Part shown: in pieces, positions 28,217-61,830 of the stretch
Layout: each line of letters starts with the position of its first letter
Position numbering within the stretch: the first letter of the stretch is position 1
Assembly: GCA_949283235.1 (NCBI GenBank)
Contig: CASDRY010000038.1
Location: 1-64,000, forward strand
Length of the DNA stretch: 64,000 nt
Direction of reading: 5' to 3'
Origin: an uncultured Spirochaetales bacterium
GTDB lineage: Bacteria > Spirochaetota > Spirochaetia > Sphaerochaetales > Sphaerochaetaceae
Translations under genes and position numbers: made by a program
The notes under the pieces: model-generated
What the model was told of the DNA's origin: nothing
Seen by the model: only the letters and a program-made list of their open reading frames with translations
Databases searched by the model: none

Positions 28217-30349
28217 TCATTTTGTCCCGTCTCTGTCAATTACCTGCATATCAGCAATAAGAAGCTGTTCCTTCTCAACTCCCTTCCAGTAGTTTATCTC
28301 AGGAGAGAAGACAACACTGACATGAGAGCCTTTCTTAAAGCTTTCCCTGTCATGGGGCTCCCACCAGAGCGCTGGCCAGGAATACGTTCCATAACGAAGG
28401 GAGAAACGCATCAGACGCTGGTCCTGCTTTGAAGGGGTAATATCTGTAATAACCGCCTCTTTTATATAAAGCTTCAGCATCTCATTCTCCTGGCCATATG
28501 GCTCAAGCATTGAAGACAATCTCCAGAGCCCTGTTGTCATATACTCTGGAGGAATCTGAGCATCTACCGTTATCTCGGGAGAAGCTGCTGCAACCTCATC
28601 CATTGTCAAGATAACGCTCTCCATCATCTGTATGAACTGATCTTTGTTTTCATATGGCAGAGAGAAACCAGCTGCACAGCGGTGTCCTCCATAATCATCG
28701 AAGAAAGCAGAGAATGTAGAGAGAAAAGCTTTAGCATCGTATTTATCAGAGCATCTCACGGATCCTGAAATTCTTTCATTCTCAACTGTAGCCATTACAA
28801 TGGAAGGAACACCATACTCCTTCGAGAGCTTTGACGCGATAGCTCCTGTCAGGCCCCTCGGAACTGCCTCATCTTCGACTATGACGAACTTTCCCTCAAG
28901 CTTCTCATAGCTTTCCCGAGCCTTATCCCTTACAAGGGAAAGGGTGTTCTCCTCATTCGCCTGACGCTGCTTATTCATAGAGAGAAGATTCTCGGTAAGC
29001 CCATCTGCTTCAGCAGGGTCTTCTGAGATCAGAAGGGAAAAAGCATCCATTGGATGGCCAAGCCTGCCCGCTGCGTTGAGAACCGGAGAGATATAGAATG
29101 AGATATCACGTGTATTGATTCTCTTTCCGCTTAAGTTCTGTCTTCCAAGCATTGACTGCAAACACATCACAGGTTTTTCCGAAAGAAGACGAAGACCTCG
29201 TTTCACAATAAGCCTGTTCTCATCCTTCATAGGCATCAAATCTGCAATCGTGCCTATAGCTGCAAGCTGCATAAGGGTATCATAATCCTTTGAAAGGGAT
29301 GGATAGGTGTAAATCGATACAGATCTGAAAAGAGAGACAAGCGTCTCGATTTCCTTATCTCCATCACTGTATTTTGCAGCCCTGGAAAGCACCGAGAGAT
29401 CAAAGAGCGAATGAGAACGCGTGCGTGGCATCATAGCTTCAAGCTTTGGCCTTATATCCACGAGTGAGATATCCACACCATCACCGAAAGCACGGCGAAG
29501 CATCTTCTTCTCAGTGTCCTCATCAAGGACTATTATCGGTAGATTGACAGCAAGGAAATCCATCAACCTGTCCTTTGATGAGGAAAGGCCATCGCCTTCG
29601 ACAATCTCCTCTGTAATCCTGTCTATCTCGATAAGATTCTCAAGCCTTACAGCATTTATCCTTATAGAACCATTTCTAGGCTCCGCATGAAGGACTATGC
29701 ACTCACTTCCATACAAAGGCGTTCTGGAAAAAGAGAGCGCCCAGATCATCTTTGCAGCTACAGCACAGCCAGCGAGCTCTGAAAAGCCATACCCAGATCC
29801 AGGGATTTTAGGATCGAAAATCGCGACTGCACCAGGAAGCTCCTCCGAAGGGATATGATGATCAAGAACAATGACATCTACCCCGCTCTTCTGAAGCGTC
29901 TTTATCTCATCGAGTGCTGAGATACCATTGTCTACAGTTATAAGGAGGGTGTACTCCTTCTCCAGTATTTCATTGACGATATCGTCGGTAAGGCCATATG
30001 GCTCATCACCCTCTGGAAGCCTTACCGCAAGATTCTTAGCTCCAAGGCTCTTAAGCCCACGATAGAGAATCGCGGAACCTGTAACACCATCCACATCCCT
30101 ATCTCCGAAGACAAGGATCTTCTCGTTCTCCTCAATCGCCTCGTTAATTCGCTCTATAGCTGTATGGACATCATCGCATTCAAGCGGGGAATGCTGGTAA
30201 ACAGTATCTGTTTCAAGGTAATAGACAGCATCCTCTGCTTTCTCAAGTCCACGTCTCTCAAGAATTGTCGCAGAAAGCAGGTCAAGAGAGAAACGTTCCT
30301 TCAATGCCCTGACCTTTCCAGGATCGGACACCGGTATCCTTATATCCAT
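28217..30349 (-). CDS. recJ: Single-stranded-DNA exonuclease RecJ
   Basis: 710 residues. DHH-superfamily motifs are present: FGDRDVDGVTGSAIL (motif I, Asp-rich; GDRDVDG in place of GDYDVDG), LLITVDNGISALDEI, VIVLDHHIP (DHH) and YISPVLNAAGRLG. The DHHA1 part has VPRGLTGAIASKLSKEYG and DDYGGHRCAAGFSL. It degrades single-stranded DNA 5' to 3' in RecF-pathway recombination and mismatch repair. Longer than E. coli RecJ, with an extra segment between motifs (about residues 230-330). The start has AGGGGAT just upstream, 8 nt after the recO stop, so the two genes form an operon. Confidence 0.95.
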   Translation of the reverse strand: MDIRIPVSDPGKVRALKERFSLDLLSATILERRGLEKAEDAVYYLETDTVYQHSPLECDDVHTAIERINEAIEENEKILVFGDRDVDGVTGSAILYRGLKSLGAKNLAVRLPEGDEPYGLTDDIVNEILEKEYTLLITVDNGISALDEIKTLQKSGVDVIVLDHHIPSEELPGAVAIFDPKIPGSGYGFSELAGCAVAAKMIWALSFSRTPLYGSECIVLHAEPRNGSIRINAVRLENLIEIDRITEEIVEGDGLSSSKDRLMDFLAVNLPIIVLDEDTEKKMLRRAFGDGVDISLVDIRPKLEAMMPRTRSHSLFDLSVLSRAAKYSDGDKEIETLVSLFRSVSIYTYPSLSKDYDTLMQLAAIGTIADLMPMKDENRLIVKRGLRLLSEKPVMCLQSMLGRQNLSGKRINTRDISFYISPVLNAAGRLGHPMDAFSLLISEDPAEADGLTENLLSMNKQRQANEENTLSLVRDKARESYEKLEGKFVIVEDEAVPRGLTGAIASKLSKEYGVPSIVMATVENERISGSVRCSDKYDAKAFLSTFSAFFDDYGGHRCAAGFSLPYENKDQFIQMMESVILTMDEVAAASPEITVDAQIPPEYMTTGLWRLSSMLEPYGQENEMLKLYIKEAVITDITPSKQDQRLMRFSLRYGTYSWPALWWEPHDRESFKKGSHVSVVFSPEINYWKGVEKEQLLIADMQVIDRDGTK

Positions 30350-30357
30350 ATCATCCC

Positions 30358-31086
30358 CTAAATCTTCCAGATACCATATTCAAGGCTTCTAAGCTTTCCC
30401 GGAAAGGAAAAAGGAAGAGTTCTCAGAAGGTATCGGAATATCCTGTGCTCCTGATTCTCTGATACAACAAGGGAAAGAGATGATGAGAAACTAAGCTCAA
30501 GAGATCTCTTAAGATAAGCCCTGGCATTCGGAGGCAGAAGCAGCGTACCGCCCATAGTATCACAGTCAGGGCAGACAGGAACACCCTCGGAGGAAGAAAA
30601 GCCAAGAACATCATCATCTCCATAAACTCTTCCGCAGACTGGACAGGTAATATAATCAGCACTGAGTCCTTCCAAAGAAAGGAAGTGTATGATGAATTCG
30701 ACTGTAACCTTCTCGAAATTCTCATCTTCAAGTGCATCGAGCGCGGATGCGAAAAGAGCATAAAGCTCAGGCTCTGCGCTTTTTCCGGTAAGGATAAGAT
30801 CTGAAAAAAGCATAGCAGCTTGCATCTTGTCGAGATCTTCAGATATTTCATCATGGGTTGAGATAACATCTATATCCTTCAGTGTCATTCCGCTTCTTCC
30901 CTTCTCGAGCGAGAATGTTCCTTCTGTATATAGTGGGGCTTTCACGCATCTGATGCTTTTCCTGGCGCCATAGGAAACAACATTGACAATTCCCATCGAG
31001 GGGGAAAAGAGAGTCAGAAGCCTATCACGCTCCCTTATCTTTGTGCTCCTTATTACAATGGCAAGCCCTTTGCTTTCCCTTTCCAT
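30358..31086 (-). CDS. recO: DNA repair protein RecO
   Basis: 242 residues from ATG 31086. The N-terminal OB fold (AIVIRSTKIRERDRLLTLFS, GIVNVVSYGARKS) and the C-terminal zinc cysteines CPVCGRVYG...CPDC match RecO. RecO anneals DNA and loads RecA on SSB-coated strands. The longer frame to 31131 would start within the promoter. ATG 31086 has no ribosome site; TTGACT and TATCCT place the transcription start at the ATG. It forms an operon with recJ. Confidence 0.93.
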   Translation of the reverse strand: MERESKGLAIVIRSTKIRERDRLLTLFSPSMGIVNVVSYGARKSIRCVKAPLYTEGTFSLEKGRSGMTLKDIDVISTHDEISEDLDKMQAAMLFSDLILTGKSAEPELYALFASALDALEDENFEKVTVEFIIHFLSLEGLSADYITCPVCGRVYGDDDVLGFSSSEGVPVCPDCDTMGGTLLLPPNARAYLKRSLELSFSSSLSLVVSENQEHRIFRYLLRTLPFSFPGKLRSLEYGIWKI

Positions 31087-31093
31087 ACCAATG

Positions 31094-31122
31094 AGGATAG
31101 AAAGAGTGATGAGTGAAGTCAA
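31094..31122 (-). promoter_or_regulatory. Leaderless-type promoter of recO
   Basis: Minus strand TTGACT, 17-nt spacer, TATCCT, then 7 nt to ATG 31086. Confidence 0.65.
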
Positions 31123-31130
31123 CAATTGCA

Positions 31131-31159
31131 TTGGCTATCATATTCGATGGTGCTATCAT
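31131..31159 (+). promoter_or_regulatory. Leaderless-type promoter of the DUF4105 gene
   Basis: TTGGCT, 17-nt spacer, TATCAT, then 6 nt to ATG 31166. Its -35 box is separated by 8 bp from that of recO on the other strand. Confidence 0.6.
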
Positions 31160-31165
31160 CGACAT

Positions 31166-32470
31166 ATGCGTTCCCTTGTTTCGATTCTTCTGTTTCTATT
31201 CTCTATCCAGATAGCCTCTGCAGCATCTTTTACTGGAGGAATTCCAATCAGGGAAGATCTCTTCTGGAGCGAAGAGGAGCTTTCCAAGGTAGATTTCACC
31301 TCACCTCTTACAGATGAGGAAAGAGACTACTATGAGAATACCCACATATATGTAGTAACCGCCTCCCCCTCTGAACCTGTATATGTCTTCTTCGGTCATG
31401 CGGGAATCGTTGTTGCTACTCCTGACACACCAGAGGTCATGTTTGATTACGGCACATTCAGATTCAATGATAGTTTCTACACGAACTTCATATTCGGACG
31501 TCTTTATTACAGCGTAATCGAAAGCTATGCTTCTTTCAGATATAATGACTTTATCGCAACAGACAGGACTATAAAGAAGATCGAATTGATGCTGACTCCA
31601 GAAGCGAAAAAAGCTGTAATAGGATTCCTTGCCTACAATGTGCTCCCTGAGAATGAGACATATCTTTATCACTACTATAAGGATAACTGCGCAACAAGGC
31701 TCAGGGATATCTATAATGCGGCAACTGATGGGGAATTCAGGGAATGGGCGGAAAGCATTGATACAGGAAAGAGCTTCAGAGCCTGGTCAACCCCTTATAT
31801 GTCGAGATCTCTGTTCTTCGCATTCATCCTGAATTATCTGCAAGGGCCTTCAATAGATGAACCTATCTCACTATATGAAGCCTGCTTCCTGCCAGATGTC
31901 CTTCTTAAAGCTATAGAGGAGTATGAGGGTATCACGGCAGATACCATATACCAGACAAAGACAAGGGAGGACACACCGGAGCGTTATAGCCTTGCCATTC
32001 ATTCCCTTCCTATCTCAATTGCATTCGGTATCATCATCATGCTGTCAGCCTCGAAAAGGAAAGGAATAAGAATACTCTCTGATATCATCGCGGGCTTTGC
32101 ATGGCTTTTCATGGGAGTGTTAGCCTTGGTGCTCCTCTTTATGATGGCTTTTACAAATCATGATGTCACATACGGAAACTGGAATATTCTTATAATATCT
32201 CCATTTGTTCTGGCCCTTTCCATTCTGCACTTCTCATCATGCGGAAGAAGAGAAAAAAGAAAGAGCATCGGAAGGCTATCCCGTCTGATGCTCATAACAG
32301 CAGTTTCAATGCTCATCCTCAAAGGATGCTTACTGGACATCATGATAGAGAACAATATTGCATTCTATATCTTCGCAATCATTGCTTACTCAGCTGAATA
32401 TGCCGTCAGCGCACTATCCTCGTACCATTCAACCCGTTCATTGCGTCCGAGATATGTTCAGGGTCAGTAA
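31166..32470 (+). CDS. DUF4105 protein: exported lipase/acyl-hydrolase-like domain plus membrane domain
   Basis: 434 residues from ATG 31166. A signal peptide (MRSLVSILLFLFSIQIASA) is followed by the DUF4105 domain (about residues 40-260), with conserved FFGHAGI, YGTFRFND and YYKDNCATRLRD. GHxxI plus DNC is the His/Cys arrangement of NlpC/P60-like folds. From about residue 280 there are four or five hydrophobic segments. DUF4105 proteins of Bacteroidetes and spirochaetes are thought to act in the envelope; the reaction is unknown. The 3' end overlaps the convergent carbamate kinase gene by 65 bp. Confidence 0.85.
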   Translation: MRSLVSILLFLFSIQIASAASFTGGIPIREDLFWSEEELSKVDFTSPLTDEERDYYENTHIYVVTASPSEPVYVFFGHAGIVVATPDTPEVMFDYGTFRFNDSFYTNFIFGRLYYSVIESYASFRYNDFIATDRTIKKIELMLTPEAKKAVIGFLAYNVLPENETYLYHYYKDNCATRLRDIYNAATDGEFREWAESIDTGKSFRAWSTPYMSRSLFFAFILNYLQGPSIDEPISLYEACFLPDVLLKAIEEYEGITADTIYQTKTREDTPERYSLAIHSLPISIAFGIIIMLSASKRKGIRILSDIIAGFAWLFMGVLALVLLFMMAFTNHDVTYGNWNILIISPFVLALSILHFSSCGRREKRKSIGRLSRLMLITAVSMLILKGCLLDIMIENNIAFYIFAIIAYSAEYAVSALSSYHSTRSLRPRYVQGQ

Positions 32471-33350
32471 TCATTCCAAGTTTTCCTGTGCTTTCCACAT
32501 AGTCGATAATTGCCTGGATCTTCGGAAGCATTGACCCTGGAGCGAACTGACCTTCATCTGAGTATTTCCTTGCCTCAGCTACAGTCATTTCATCTATCGC
32601 TCTCTGGGTTGGCTTGTTGTAATCGAGGCATACTTTCTCGACAGCAGTAGAGATGATGAAAGCATCGGCATCCAGAGCTTTTGCGAGAATTGCTGCAGCA
32701 AGGTCCTTGTCTATTACAGCCTCCTTTCCCCAGAGCGCTCCTTCCTCATCCCTGACTACAGGAATTCCACCACCACCAGCAGCTATAACAGTTGCGCCAC
32801 TATCTGCAAGGAAACGGATTGTATCAAGTTCCACAATTGATTTTGGCTTCGGGGAAGGAACAACTCTCCTCCACCCTCTTCCAGCATCTTCCTTTACATC
32901 CCATCCGAATGAAGCTCTATGCTCTGCAGCATCTTCTGCGGTCATGAAAGAACCAATCGGCTTTGTAGGATTATTGAAAGATGGATCATCAGGGCTAACC
33001 TCCACCTGAGTAACAACAGTGAGAGCCCTGTTCTTCATACCACGCTTGATGAATTCATTATCCAAGGCTTTCTGCAACTGATAACCAATCGCTCCCTGGG
33101 TATCTGCAACACAGGAATCAAGAGGAACTGCATGAAGAATCTTTCTTGCATACTCTGAGCGAAGAAGGATATACCCAACCTGCGGTCCATTTCCATGGAC
33201 AATAACAACACGATGGCCGCTTTCAATGATATCAGCGATATGATGAGCTGTCTTCTCAGCAGCACGATACTGTGCATCCACAGTTACTTTCTTAGGGTCC
33301 TCTATAAGTGAATTACCTCCGATGGCAATTACTATCAGCTTTCCTGTCAT
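32406..33350 (-). CDS. arcC: Carbamate kinase
   Basis: 314 residues, normal length. Amino acid kinase motifs: VIAIGGNSLIEDP, VIVHGNGPQVGYIL, VIAAGGGGIPVV and AVIDKDLAAAILAKAL, with STAVEKVCLDYNKP. It makes ATP and carbamate from carbamoyl phosphate (the last step of arginine deiminase or purine/allantoin fermentation). GGAGG lies 5 nt upstream of ATG. No arcA, arcB or other carbamoyl-phosphate-forming gene is adjacent, so the pathway it serves is open. It overlaps the DUF4105 gene tail to tail. Confidence 0.96.
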   Translation of the reverse strand: MTGKLIVIAIGGNSLIEDPKKVTVDAQYRAAEKTAHHIADIIESGHRVVIVHGNGPQVGYILLRSEYARKILHAVPLDSCVADTQGAIGYQLQKALDNEFIKRGMKNRALTVVTQVEVSPDDPSFNNPTKPIGSFMTAEDAAEHRASFGWDVKEDAGRGWRRVVPSPKPKSIVELDTIRFLADSGATVIAAGGGGIPVVRDEEGALWGKEAVIDKDLAAAILAKALDADAFIISTAVEKVCLDYNKPTQRAIDEMTVAEARKYSDEGQFAPGSMLPKIQAIIDYVESTGKLGMITDPEHISDAMNGLNGTRIVR

Positions 33351-59516: not shown

Positions 59517-60856
59517 GCCTTTCTCAGCCATCTTCCTCGGATTATGAGAAAAAGGAAGATGGATGCTGATATAAGCCAAGTCAGTGGATAGGCTATGTAA
59601 ATGAGCATTATGTCATGAGAGAAGTGAAGAGCGATGCTGACGAATATCACTCTGATAATACACCATGCTCCAAGGAGTACGAACATTGGAATAAATGCCT
59701 TCCCTGCTCCTCTCAGAACGCCCGCGCTTGCATGCGATATTGCAGGAAGGAAATAGAAAAAAGCTTCAAGTCTTGCCTGTCTGACACCAAACTCTATTAC
59801 CTCCGGATCCGATGAAAAGAGTGAAACCAGCAATGGAGCTATGAGGAAAAGAAGTATACCTACAATCTCTCCTGAGACTATATCCATTACCATGCCTTCC
59901 ATTACACCTTTCCTGGTTCTCTGAAGATTCCCGCTACCCATAGTCTGAGCAACAAAAGTAGTCAAGGAGAGGGCAAATGTGGTTATCGGGAGAAGTACAA
60001 ACCCCTCAATTTTCCCATAAACACCAAATCCCGCGATAGCTGCAGCTGAGAATGTATTCACAGAGGCCTGCACTACTGTGTTTGCCAGTCCTATAATCGA
60101 ATTCTGAAGCCCTGCGGGGAGTCCATAGCTTATAATTCCCCTCAACTCCCTCTTATGAATCCTGATTCGCCTTAATCTTACCTCTATTCCCCCTTCTCCT
60201 CTAAAAAGGCGTATAAAGCACAATAAAGAGCTTACAGCCTGTGAAATGATAGTCGCAGCCGCAGCAGAACCAACTCCCATACCGAAGCCAGCGATGAAAA
60301 GAAGGTCAAGAAAGATATTTATCAGAGATGAAATGATAAGATAATAAAGCGGGTGACGGCTGTCTCCCAATGCATTCATTATACCCATCAGGATGTTATA
60401 CATGACTGAGAAAAAGATACCTGCAGAGTATATCCTGAAATAATCAGAACTCAGAGGCAGGATATCCTCCGGTGTGGATATCCATCTCAGTATTGAGGGT
60501 GTGAAAATTACGGCAAAGGCTGTGAGTACTATGCCTGCAATTATTCCGAATGCGATATCAGAATAGATAGCTCTTTCAAGCCTCTCCTTATCTTTCGCTC
60601 CGAAAGCATGGGAAATAACTACCCCCGCTCCTACAGCTAGACCATTGAAGAAGCCTACCATCATGAAAATCAGAGAGCTGGATGAAGAGACAGCAGCAAG
60701 AGCTTCCGAACCAAGAAAGTTGCCTACAATCAGTGTATCAGCTGCGTTATAGAGCTGCTGAAAGAGATTTCCTAAGAAAAGAGGAAGCGCAAACGCTACG
60801 ATCTTCTTTGAGATCGATCCTGTAGAGAAATCGACAAGCCCTCTTTCCTCACTCAT
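59513..60856 (-). CDS. MATE family efflux transporter
   Basis: 447 residues with about 12 membrane segments. KIVAFALPLFLGNLFQQLYN, AADTLIVGNFLG, YNILMGIMNALGDSRHPLYY and GVLRGAGKAFIPMF fit the MatE family. TATAAT ends 8 nt before ATG and TTGCAG lies 16 nt further up, with no proper ribosome site (AAGG one base from ATG), so the leader is one or two bases at most. Divergent from the beta-hydroxyacid dehydrogenase, 86 bp apart. Confidence 0.92.
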   Translation of the reverse strand: MSEERGLVDFSTGSISKKIVAFALPLFLGNLFQQLYNAADTLIVGNFLGSEALAAVSSSSSLIFMMVGFFNGLAVGAGVVISHAFGAKDKERLERAIYSDIAFGIIAGIVLTAFAVIFTPSILRWISTPEDILPLSSDYFRIYSAGIFFSVMYNILMGIMNALGDSRHPLYYLIISSLINIFLDLLFIAGFGMGVGSAAAATIISQAVSSLLCFIRLFRGEGGIEVRLRRIRIHKRELRGIISYGLPAGLQNSIIGLANTVVQASVNTFSAAAIAGFGVYGKIEGFVLLPITTFALSLTTFVAQTMGSGNLQRTRKGVMEGMVMDIVSGEIVGILLFLIAPLLVSLFSSDPEVIEFGVRQARLEAFFYFLPAISHASAGVLRGAGKAFIPMFVLLGAWCIIRVIFVSIALHFSHDIMLIYIAYPLTWLISASIFLFLIIRGRWLRKA

Positions 60857-60864
60857 GCCTTGGG

Positions 60865-60892
60865 ATTATATCAAAGGAGCGAATAACTGCAA
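60865..60892 (-). promoter_or_regulatory. Nearly leaderless promoter of the MATE gene
   Basis: Minus strand TTGCAG, 16 nt, TATAAT, then 8 nt to ATG 60856. Confidence 0.6.
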
Positions 60893-60907
60893 TACTTACC
60901 TGCCCTA

Positions 60908-60936
60908 TTCTGATAATCATCAATTGATGCTAGAAT
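60908..60936 (+). promoter_or_regulatory. Leaderless-type promoter of the dehydrogenase-citrate synthase operon
   Basis: TTCTGA (weak), 17 nt, TAGAAT, then 6 nt (CTCAGC) to ATG 60943; no ribosome site. Confidence 0.5.
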
Positions 60937-60942
60937 CTCAGC

Positions 60943-61830
60943 ATGGGAAAGAAAATAGGATTCATAGGACTTGGTGTTATGGGAGTCTCGATGGCGTCGA
61001 GGCTTATCGACTCGGGCTATGAGCTATATATCTACAACAGGACAAAAGCCAAGGGCGATCTGCTTGTTGCAAAAGGTGCTCACTGGTGTGATACCCCGCG
61101 CTCAGTTGCAGAGAATGCGGAGATAACATTCACAATTGTCGGTTTTCCAAAGGATGTCGAGGAAGTATATCTCGGAAAGAACGGAATCGTAGAGGGCGCA
61201 GGAAAAGAAAAGATCTTCTGCGACATGACAACAACAAAACCCTCTCTCGATATGCAGATAGCTGAAGAGCTTAAGAAAAAGGGTGCGGAAATGGCAGATG
61301 CTCCTGTATCTGGCGGAGACACCGGAGCAAAGAATGGAACGCTGTCAATAATGGTTGGAGCAAGTGAAAGCGTCTTCGAAAAACTCCTTCCTCTCTTCCA
61401 GGTAATGGGAAAGAACATAACGCTGATGGGAGAAGTCGGAGCTGGACAGAACACGAAGATGGCTAACCAGATCGTAATTGCAGGAACCATGTGCGGAGTA
61501 TCTGAAGCGCTTGTCTATGGAGCTAAAGCAGGACTCGATCTTGAGAGAATGGTTCAGACGATTTCAAAGGGAGCTGCCGGGTGCTGGACTCTCGATAATC
61601 TTGCTCCCCGTGTACTCAAAGGAGATTATGAACCAGGCTTTATGGTAGATCACTTCATAAAGGATATGGGAATAGCACTGGAAGAAGCGGAAAAGATGGA
61701 ACTGCCTCTTCCTTCCCTTGCACTGACAAAACAGCTATACCTTGCGATTAAAGCACAAGGCATGGGCAAGAAGGGAACACAGGTTCTTGTTAAGGCCATC
61801 GAAGCACTTGCGGGAAAGGAGATTCTATGA
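60943..61830 (+). CDS. Beta-hydroxyacid dehydrogenase (3-hydroxyisobutyrate / tartronate semialdehyde reductase family)
   Basis: 295 residues. IGFIGLGVMGVSMASRL (NAD(P) Rossmann, GxGxMG), APVSGGDTGAKNGTLSIMVG (substrate-binding SGG) and GAGQNTKMANQI with catalytic Lys. It reduces or oxidises a small beta-hydroxyacid; the exact substrate (3-hydroxyisobutyrate, tartronate semialdehyde, succinic semialdehyde) is not fixed by sequence. It overlaps citrate synthase by 4 bp (ATGA) and is first in that operon. Confidence 0.9.
   Translation: MGKKIGFIGLGVMGVSMASRLIDSGYELYIYNRTKAKGDLLVAKGAHWCDTPRSVAENAEITFTIVGFPKDVEEVYLGKNGIVEGAGKEKIFCDMTTTKPSLDMQIAEELKKKGAEMADAPVSGGDTGAKNGTLSIMVGASESVFEKLLPLFQVMGKNITLMGEVGAGQNTKMANQIVIAGTMCGVSEALVYGAKAGLDLERMVQTISKGAAGCWTLDNLAPRVLKGDYEPGFMVDHFIKDMGIALEEAEKMELPLPSLALTKQLYLAIKAQGMGKKGTQVLVKAIEALAGKEIL

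Follow-up and report, generated by a model that had tools for sequence, protein, structure and literature searches.

Both leaderless genes and divergent pairs of such genes have been described elsewhere. In Spirochaetes, leaderless genes with a TANNNT-type signal some 12 bp ahead of the start codon were reported from 6 of 18 genomes, and the leaderless share averaged 3.9% of genes, with a range of 1.8–6.9% (Zheng et al. 2011, PMC3160421). In Leptospira interrogans, dRNA-seq revealed ~440 mRNAs with a 5' UTR of <10 nt, half of them with <2 nt (PMC5243855). The divergent neighbours prpD and Rv1129c of Mycobacterium tuberculosis both have mapped leaderless starts, in a study that calls closely juxtaposed divergent promoters common (PMC3898074). 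In Deinococcus-Thermus, a -10 box directly beside the ORF is a regular mode of leaderless expression (PMC12340547). In the literature that we searched, leaderless genes of Sphaerochaeta were not the subject of any paper.

Here we analyse the gap between recO and a divergent lnb-like gene in a window of 64,000 nucleotides from an uncultured Spirochaetales bacterium. With a high degree of confidence we read this gap as two divergent promoters of the primary-sigma type whose mRNAs are both leaderless, the transcription starts being predicted from sequence.

Genes flanking the gap

The lnb-like (DUF4105) protein matched Lnb_N and 5TMH_Lnb, both over the cut-off (Table 1), and its N terminus resembles a signal peptide. 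Its named relatives include MAGs of Candidatus Ornithospirochaeta, a genus that we take to belong to the family Sphaerochaetaceae, and on this basis we assign the genome to that group. DUF4105 has been recognised as Lnb, a lipoprotein N-acyltransferase of Bacteroides (PMC12994826). The translation here has FGHAG and DNC motifs, as would fit the superfamily's His/Cys core; N-acylation of lipoproteins is the predicted role of the protein. Among 48 congeneric genomes, Lnb_N was found in 47 and LNT_N (PF20154) in all; Lnb_N was also present in each of 12 other genera sampled from the family. The two types of lipoprotein N-acyltransferase, Lnb and Lnt, thus appear to coexist in the genus, in contrast to the displacement of DUF4105 by Lnt that has been described (PMC12994826).

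Table 1. Coordinates of genes and predicted promoter elements around the recO–lnb gap.
Feature	Coordinates	Strand	Start or sequence	Spacing	Remarks
recJ-like	28217..30349	-		8 nt downstream of recO	Pfam DHH, DHHA1, RecJ_OB
recO	30358..31086	-	ATG 31086		242 aa; Pfam RecO_N/RecO_C, PF11967 + PF02565
recO -10	31094..31099	-	TATCCT	7 nt to ATG	conserved TATYYT-like box
recO -35	31117..31122	-	TTGACT	spacer 17 bp to -10	
lnb -35-like	31131..31136	+	TTGGCT	spacer 17	weak, 4/6
lnb extended -10	31151..31159	+	TGC-TATCAT	6 nt to ATG	hexamer 31154-31159
lnb-like (DUF4105)	31166..32470	+	ATG 31166		434 aa; Pfam PF13387 + PF25221

Two predicted outward-pointing promoters

The gap (31087–31165, 79 bp) is filled almost entirely by two outward-pointing promoters, whose -35 boxes lie 8 bp apart (31123–31130), confirming the original prediction on this point. 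The recO promoter was given there as TTGACT-17-TATCCT with 7 nt to the ATG, which is exact to the base. So is the predicted position of the lnb promoter (TTGGCT-17-TATCAT, 6 nt to the ATG), but its -35 box is weak and, outside the nearest relatives, poorly conserved. Both genes were also said to be without a ribosome site, and indeed no SD-like tetramer was found upstream of either start in the window. The lnb promoter is a 9/12 consensus match. Promoters that match at 9/12 and lie 6–8 nt from the start arose in only 0.30% of dinucleotide shuffles on the recO side and 0.44% on the lnb side.

As we picture it, each transcript would begin with the A of its ATG, or no more than one base away. The canonical +1 of recO, at 7 nt, is the base before this A. 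RNA polymerase may pick a start 1–3 nt away, giving very short leaders, and the leaders here could possibly be either strictly absent or very short, at 0–2 nt. Translation would do without an SD motif, presumably through direct recognition of the 5'-terminal AUG. The recO promoter, of the -35/-10 kind, should also drive the recJ-like gene, which to judge from its spacing is probably co-transcribed with recO as an operon. The lnb promoter would rely mainly on its extended -10.

Conservation of box position

A search of 100 related genomes recovered RecO in 90. We aligned 30 congeneric loci (L002–L031, window included; Candidatus Ornithospirochaeta-like) by their recO and lnb starts; RecO identity to the window protein ranged from 45% to 88%. 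The two genes were divergent in 30/30 loci, a count that, like the other conservation counts given here, is not made up of independent cases because the loci are related.

The recO -10 box (TATCCT, TATTCT, TATCTT or TATTTT) ended 6 nt before the ATG in 14 loci, 7 nt in 14 and 8 nt in one, and only L030 was without a clear box. These 29 loci compare with 1.7 expected from shuffled upstream sequences. A TTGAC-type -35 at a spacer of 17–18 bp was present in nearly all 30, and a full promoter (-35 and -10 hexamers 16–18 bp apart) 6–8 nt before the ATG occurred in 29/30 loci vs 0.07 expected. For lnb, when the best nearby start was chosen, the -10 lay at 6 nt in 19 loci, at 7 nt in eight and at 9–10 nt in three. 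Under the fixed rule of taking the ATG nearest to the start of homology, it lay at 6–8 nt in 29/30 loci, vs 1.4 expected from shuffles. The box was preceded by the TGN extension in 23/30 loci. By contrast, the TTGG motif of the lnb -35 was found only in the nearest relatives. SD motifs were absent before recO in 29/30 loci and before lnb in all 30, leaving one among 60 starts.

All but two of the 30 gaps measured 57–91 bp; the exceptions were 52 and 170 bp long. While the gap thus varied from 52 to 170 bp, the distance from promoter to start stayed at 6–8 nt in nearly all loci, and the spacing between the predicted promoters and their starts is under evolutionary constraint. The idea that a constant spacing of the two promoters might betray coupling was rejected, since gap length varies; in the shorter gaps the -35 regions overlap. 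The putative leaderless arrangement of recO and lnb is common in the lineage, not exceptional.

Outside this close group the picture was mixed. Among more distant congeners (L084–L091), the recO -10 lay at 6–7 nt in several, with exceptions, and L089 shows an SD-like GGAGG before lnb. Beyond the genus, an SD-like site frequently precedes recO, for instance in G049 and G058; in G057, TATAAT lies 7 nt upstream of a GTG start of recO. RecO and Lnb_N matches were also adjacent and divergent in G061 (contig C30) and G087 (C54), from another family of the class; the gene order therefore seems older than the leaderless arrangement.

A genome-wide peak at the same distance

Genes were called on sampled genome stretches by coding potential, using no upstream signal. 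As a control of the caller, 79 of 83 annotated genes of E. coli K-12 were found, 62 with the same start (two of four stretches). In G000, the genome of the window (581 kb, 451 genes), TAnnnT ended 6, 7 and 8 nt before the start of 38, 16 and 10 genes, against a background of 9.2 genes per position elsewhere. The total of 64 at 6–8 nt, with its peak at 6 nt, compares with 27.7 expected (P=3e-9); E. coli had no excess at these positions (3 vs 7.7 expected). The excess amounts to ~8% of genes in G000, 8–11% across four congeners, 11.4% for G058 and ~4% for G049 and G066. An SD motif was found in only 2 of 36 boxed genes of G000 vs 52% of all its genes. Boxes were not enriched in operon-inner genes (1–9%, near the control level), and preference for ATG did not differ between leaderless-like and SD genes. 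The 16S rRNA, sought for its anti-SD sequence, was absent from the assembly.

The claim that both recO and lnb are leaderless is thus supported on two counts at the level of sequence comparison: congeners keep the spacing of box to start and are missing SD motifs, and G000, but not E. coli, has a -10 peak at the same 6–7 nt.

Alternative readings

The transcripts might instead carry leaders that have no SD motif, beginning further upstream within the neighbouring gene and being translated through an alternative non-SD mechanism, for example by way of an unstructured leader. Promoters inside the neighbouring gene are compatible with the sequence, and bacterial non-SD genes that possibly use other routes have been described (PMC5397173). 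Upstream starts would nevertheless leave unexplained the distance of 6–7 nt from box to ATG, both in these loci and in the genome-wide peak, and we consider this reading improbable.

We give still less weight to misplaced start codons, by which recO would begin at the ATG at 31131 (257 aa), or lnb upstream in an ORF that extends to 30983, so that the boxes would be coding sequence. Both upstream frames are indeed open in this genome, but many congeners have an in-frame stop before any other start of recO or lnb, and these stops led us to reject the longer starts. Homology in relatives moreover begins at residue 1 of RecO and at the signal peptide of Lnb, while the length of the upstream DNA varies.

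Least credible of all is a chance resemblance of AT-rich intergenic sequence to promoters, since box position is kept across 30 genomes, even though a consensus promoter scan of 30000–32500 returned 5 sites vs 4.6 in shuffles; with its site count at chance level we dropped the scan as sole evidence and built the case for leaderless promoters on box position and conservation.

Compact divergent gaps

In the four congeners, boxes were found at 31–36% of divergent starts vs 6–13% in the control. They were not concentrated at tandem starts that follow a gap of at least 50 bp (6–14% vs control 5–11%). Pooled over the same four congeners, divergent gaps of 30–99 bp had a box at 49 of their 88 starts, and those of at least 250 bp at 14 of 80; the comparison of 40–99 bp with at least 150 bp gave a Fisher P of 1.8e-6. 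These counts leave out the window's own recO/lnb gap, lnb having been missed by the caller. Since a leaderless promoter takes up ~35 bp from -35 to ATG, two of them fit in 70–90 bp, which would be about the smallest gap for such a pair and is a commonly seen size.

Boxes were present on both sides of 12 of the 44 divergent gaps of 30–99 bp. Under independence 6.9 such pairs were expected at 30–69 bp and 7.0 at 70–99 bp, and six were observed in each class, so nothing suggests that the two sides are coupled once the high rate per side is allowed for. For recO and lnb themselves we saw no indication of regulatory coupling.

A second candidate leaderless pair was noted in the window, at 60856(-)/60943(+), with a gap of 86 bp (60857–60942). 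TATAAT lies 8 nt before a MATE-family transporter gene (60856, minus strand), and TAGAAT lies 6 nt before a gene resembling 3-hydroxyisobutyrate dehydrogenase (60943–61830, plus strand). In five distant congeners the best match to this dehydrogenase-like protein contains one in-frame stop, TAG in G009, G036, G016 and G002 and TGA in G045, which may reflect decay, an error of assembly or recoding.

We take the recO/lnb pair to be one case of a family-wide class of gene starts concentrated in compact divergent gaps. We suggest, tentatively and with rather more doubt than conviction, that the family's compact divergent gaps are standard back-to-back leaderless units, and that leaderless initiation is largely tied to divergent pairs and not to operon-first genes generally, which would couple gene order to translation mode. 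Of greater interest than the recO/lnb pair itself is the enrichment in compact divergent gaps, which is worth following up. Should transcript mapping bear the leaderless reading out, ~1/10 of genes throughout a spirochaete family would have leaderless starts, mostly in tight divergent pairs. This would help to correct gene-start annotation in largely uncultured gut bacteria, and would offer a simple system for testing genome compaction as a driver of leaderless initiation.

Comparison with known systems

The -10 box adjoins the ORF here as it does in Deinococcus-Thermus, but that is another phylum, where the arrangement was tested experimentally. Leptospira interrogans is of the same phylum, though distant, and its leaderless mRNAs were measured whereas ours are predicted. 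The prpD/Rv1129c pair is that of a regulator and its target in an actinobacterium; recO and lnb are functionally unrelated, and neither is a regulator. The leaderless genes of Zheng et al. share with ours the distance of the -10 from the start and the absence of an SD motif. Our excess of ~8–11% of genes lies above their range, as values obtained by differing methods, and unlike theirs it is concentrated in divergent pairs.
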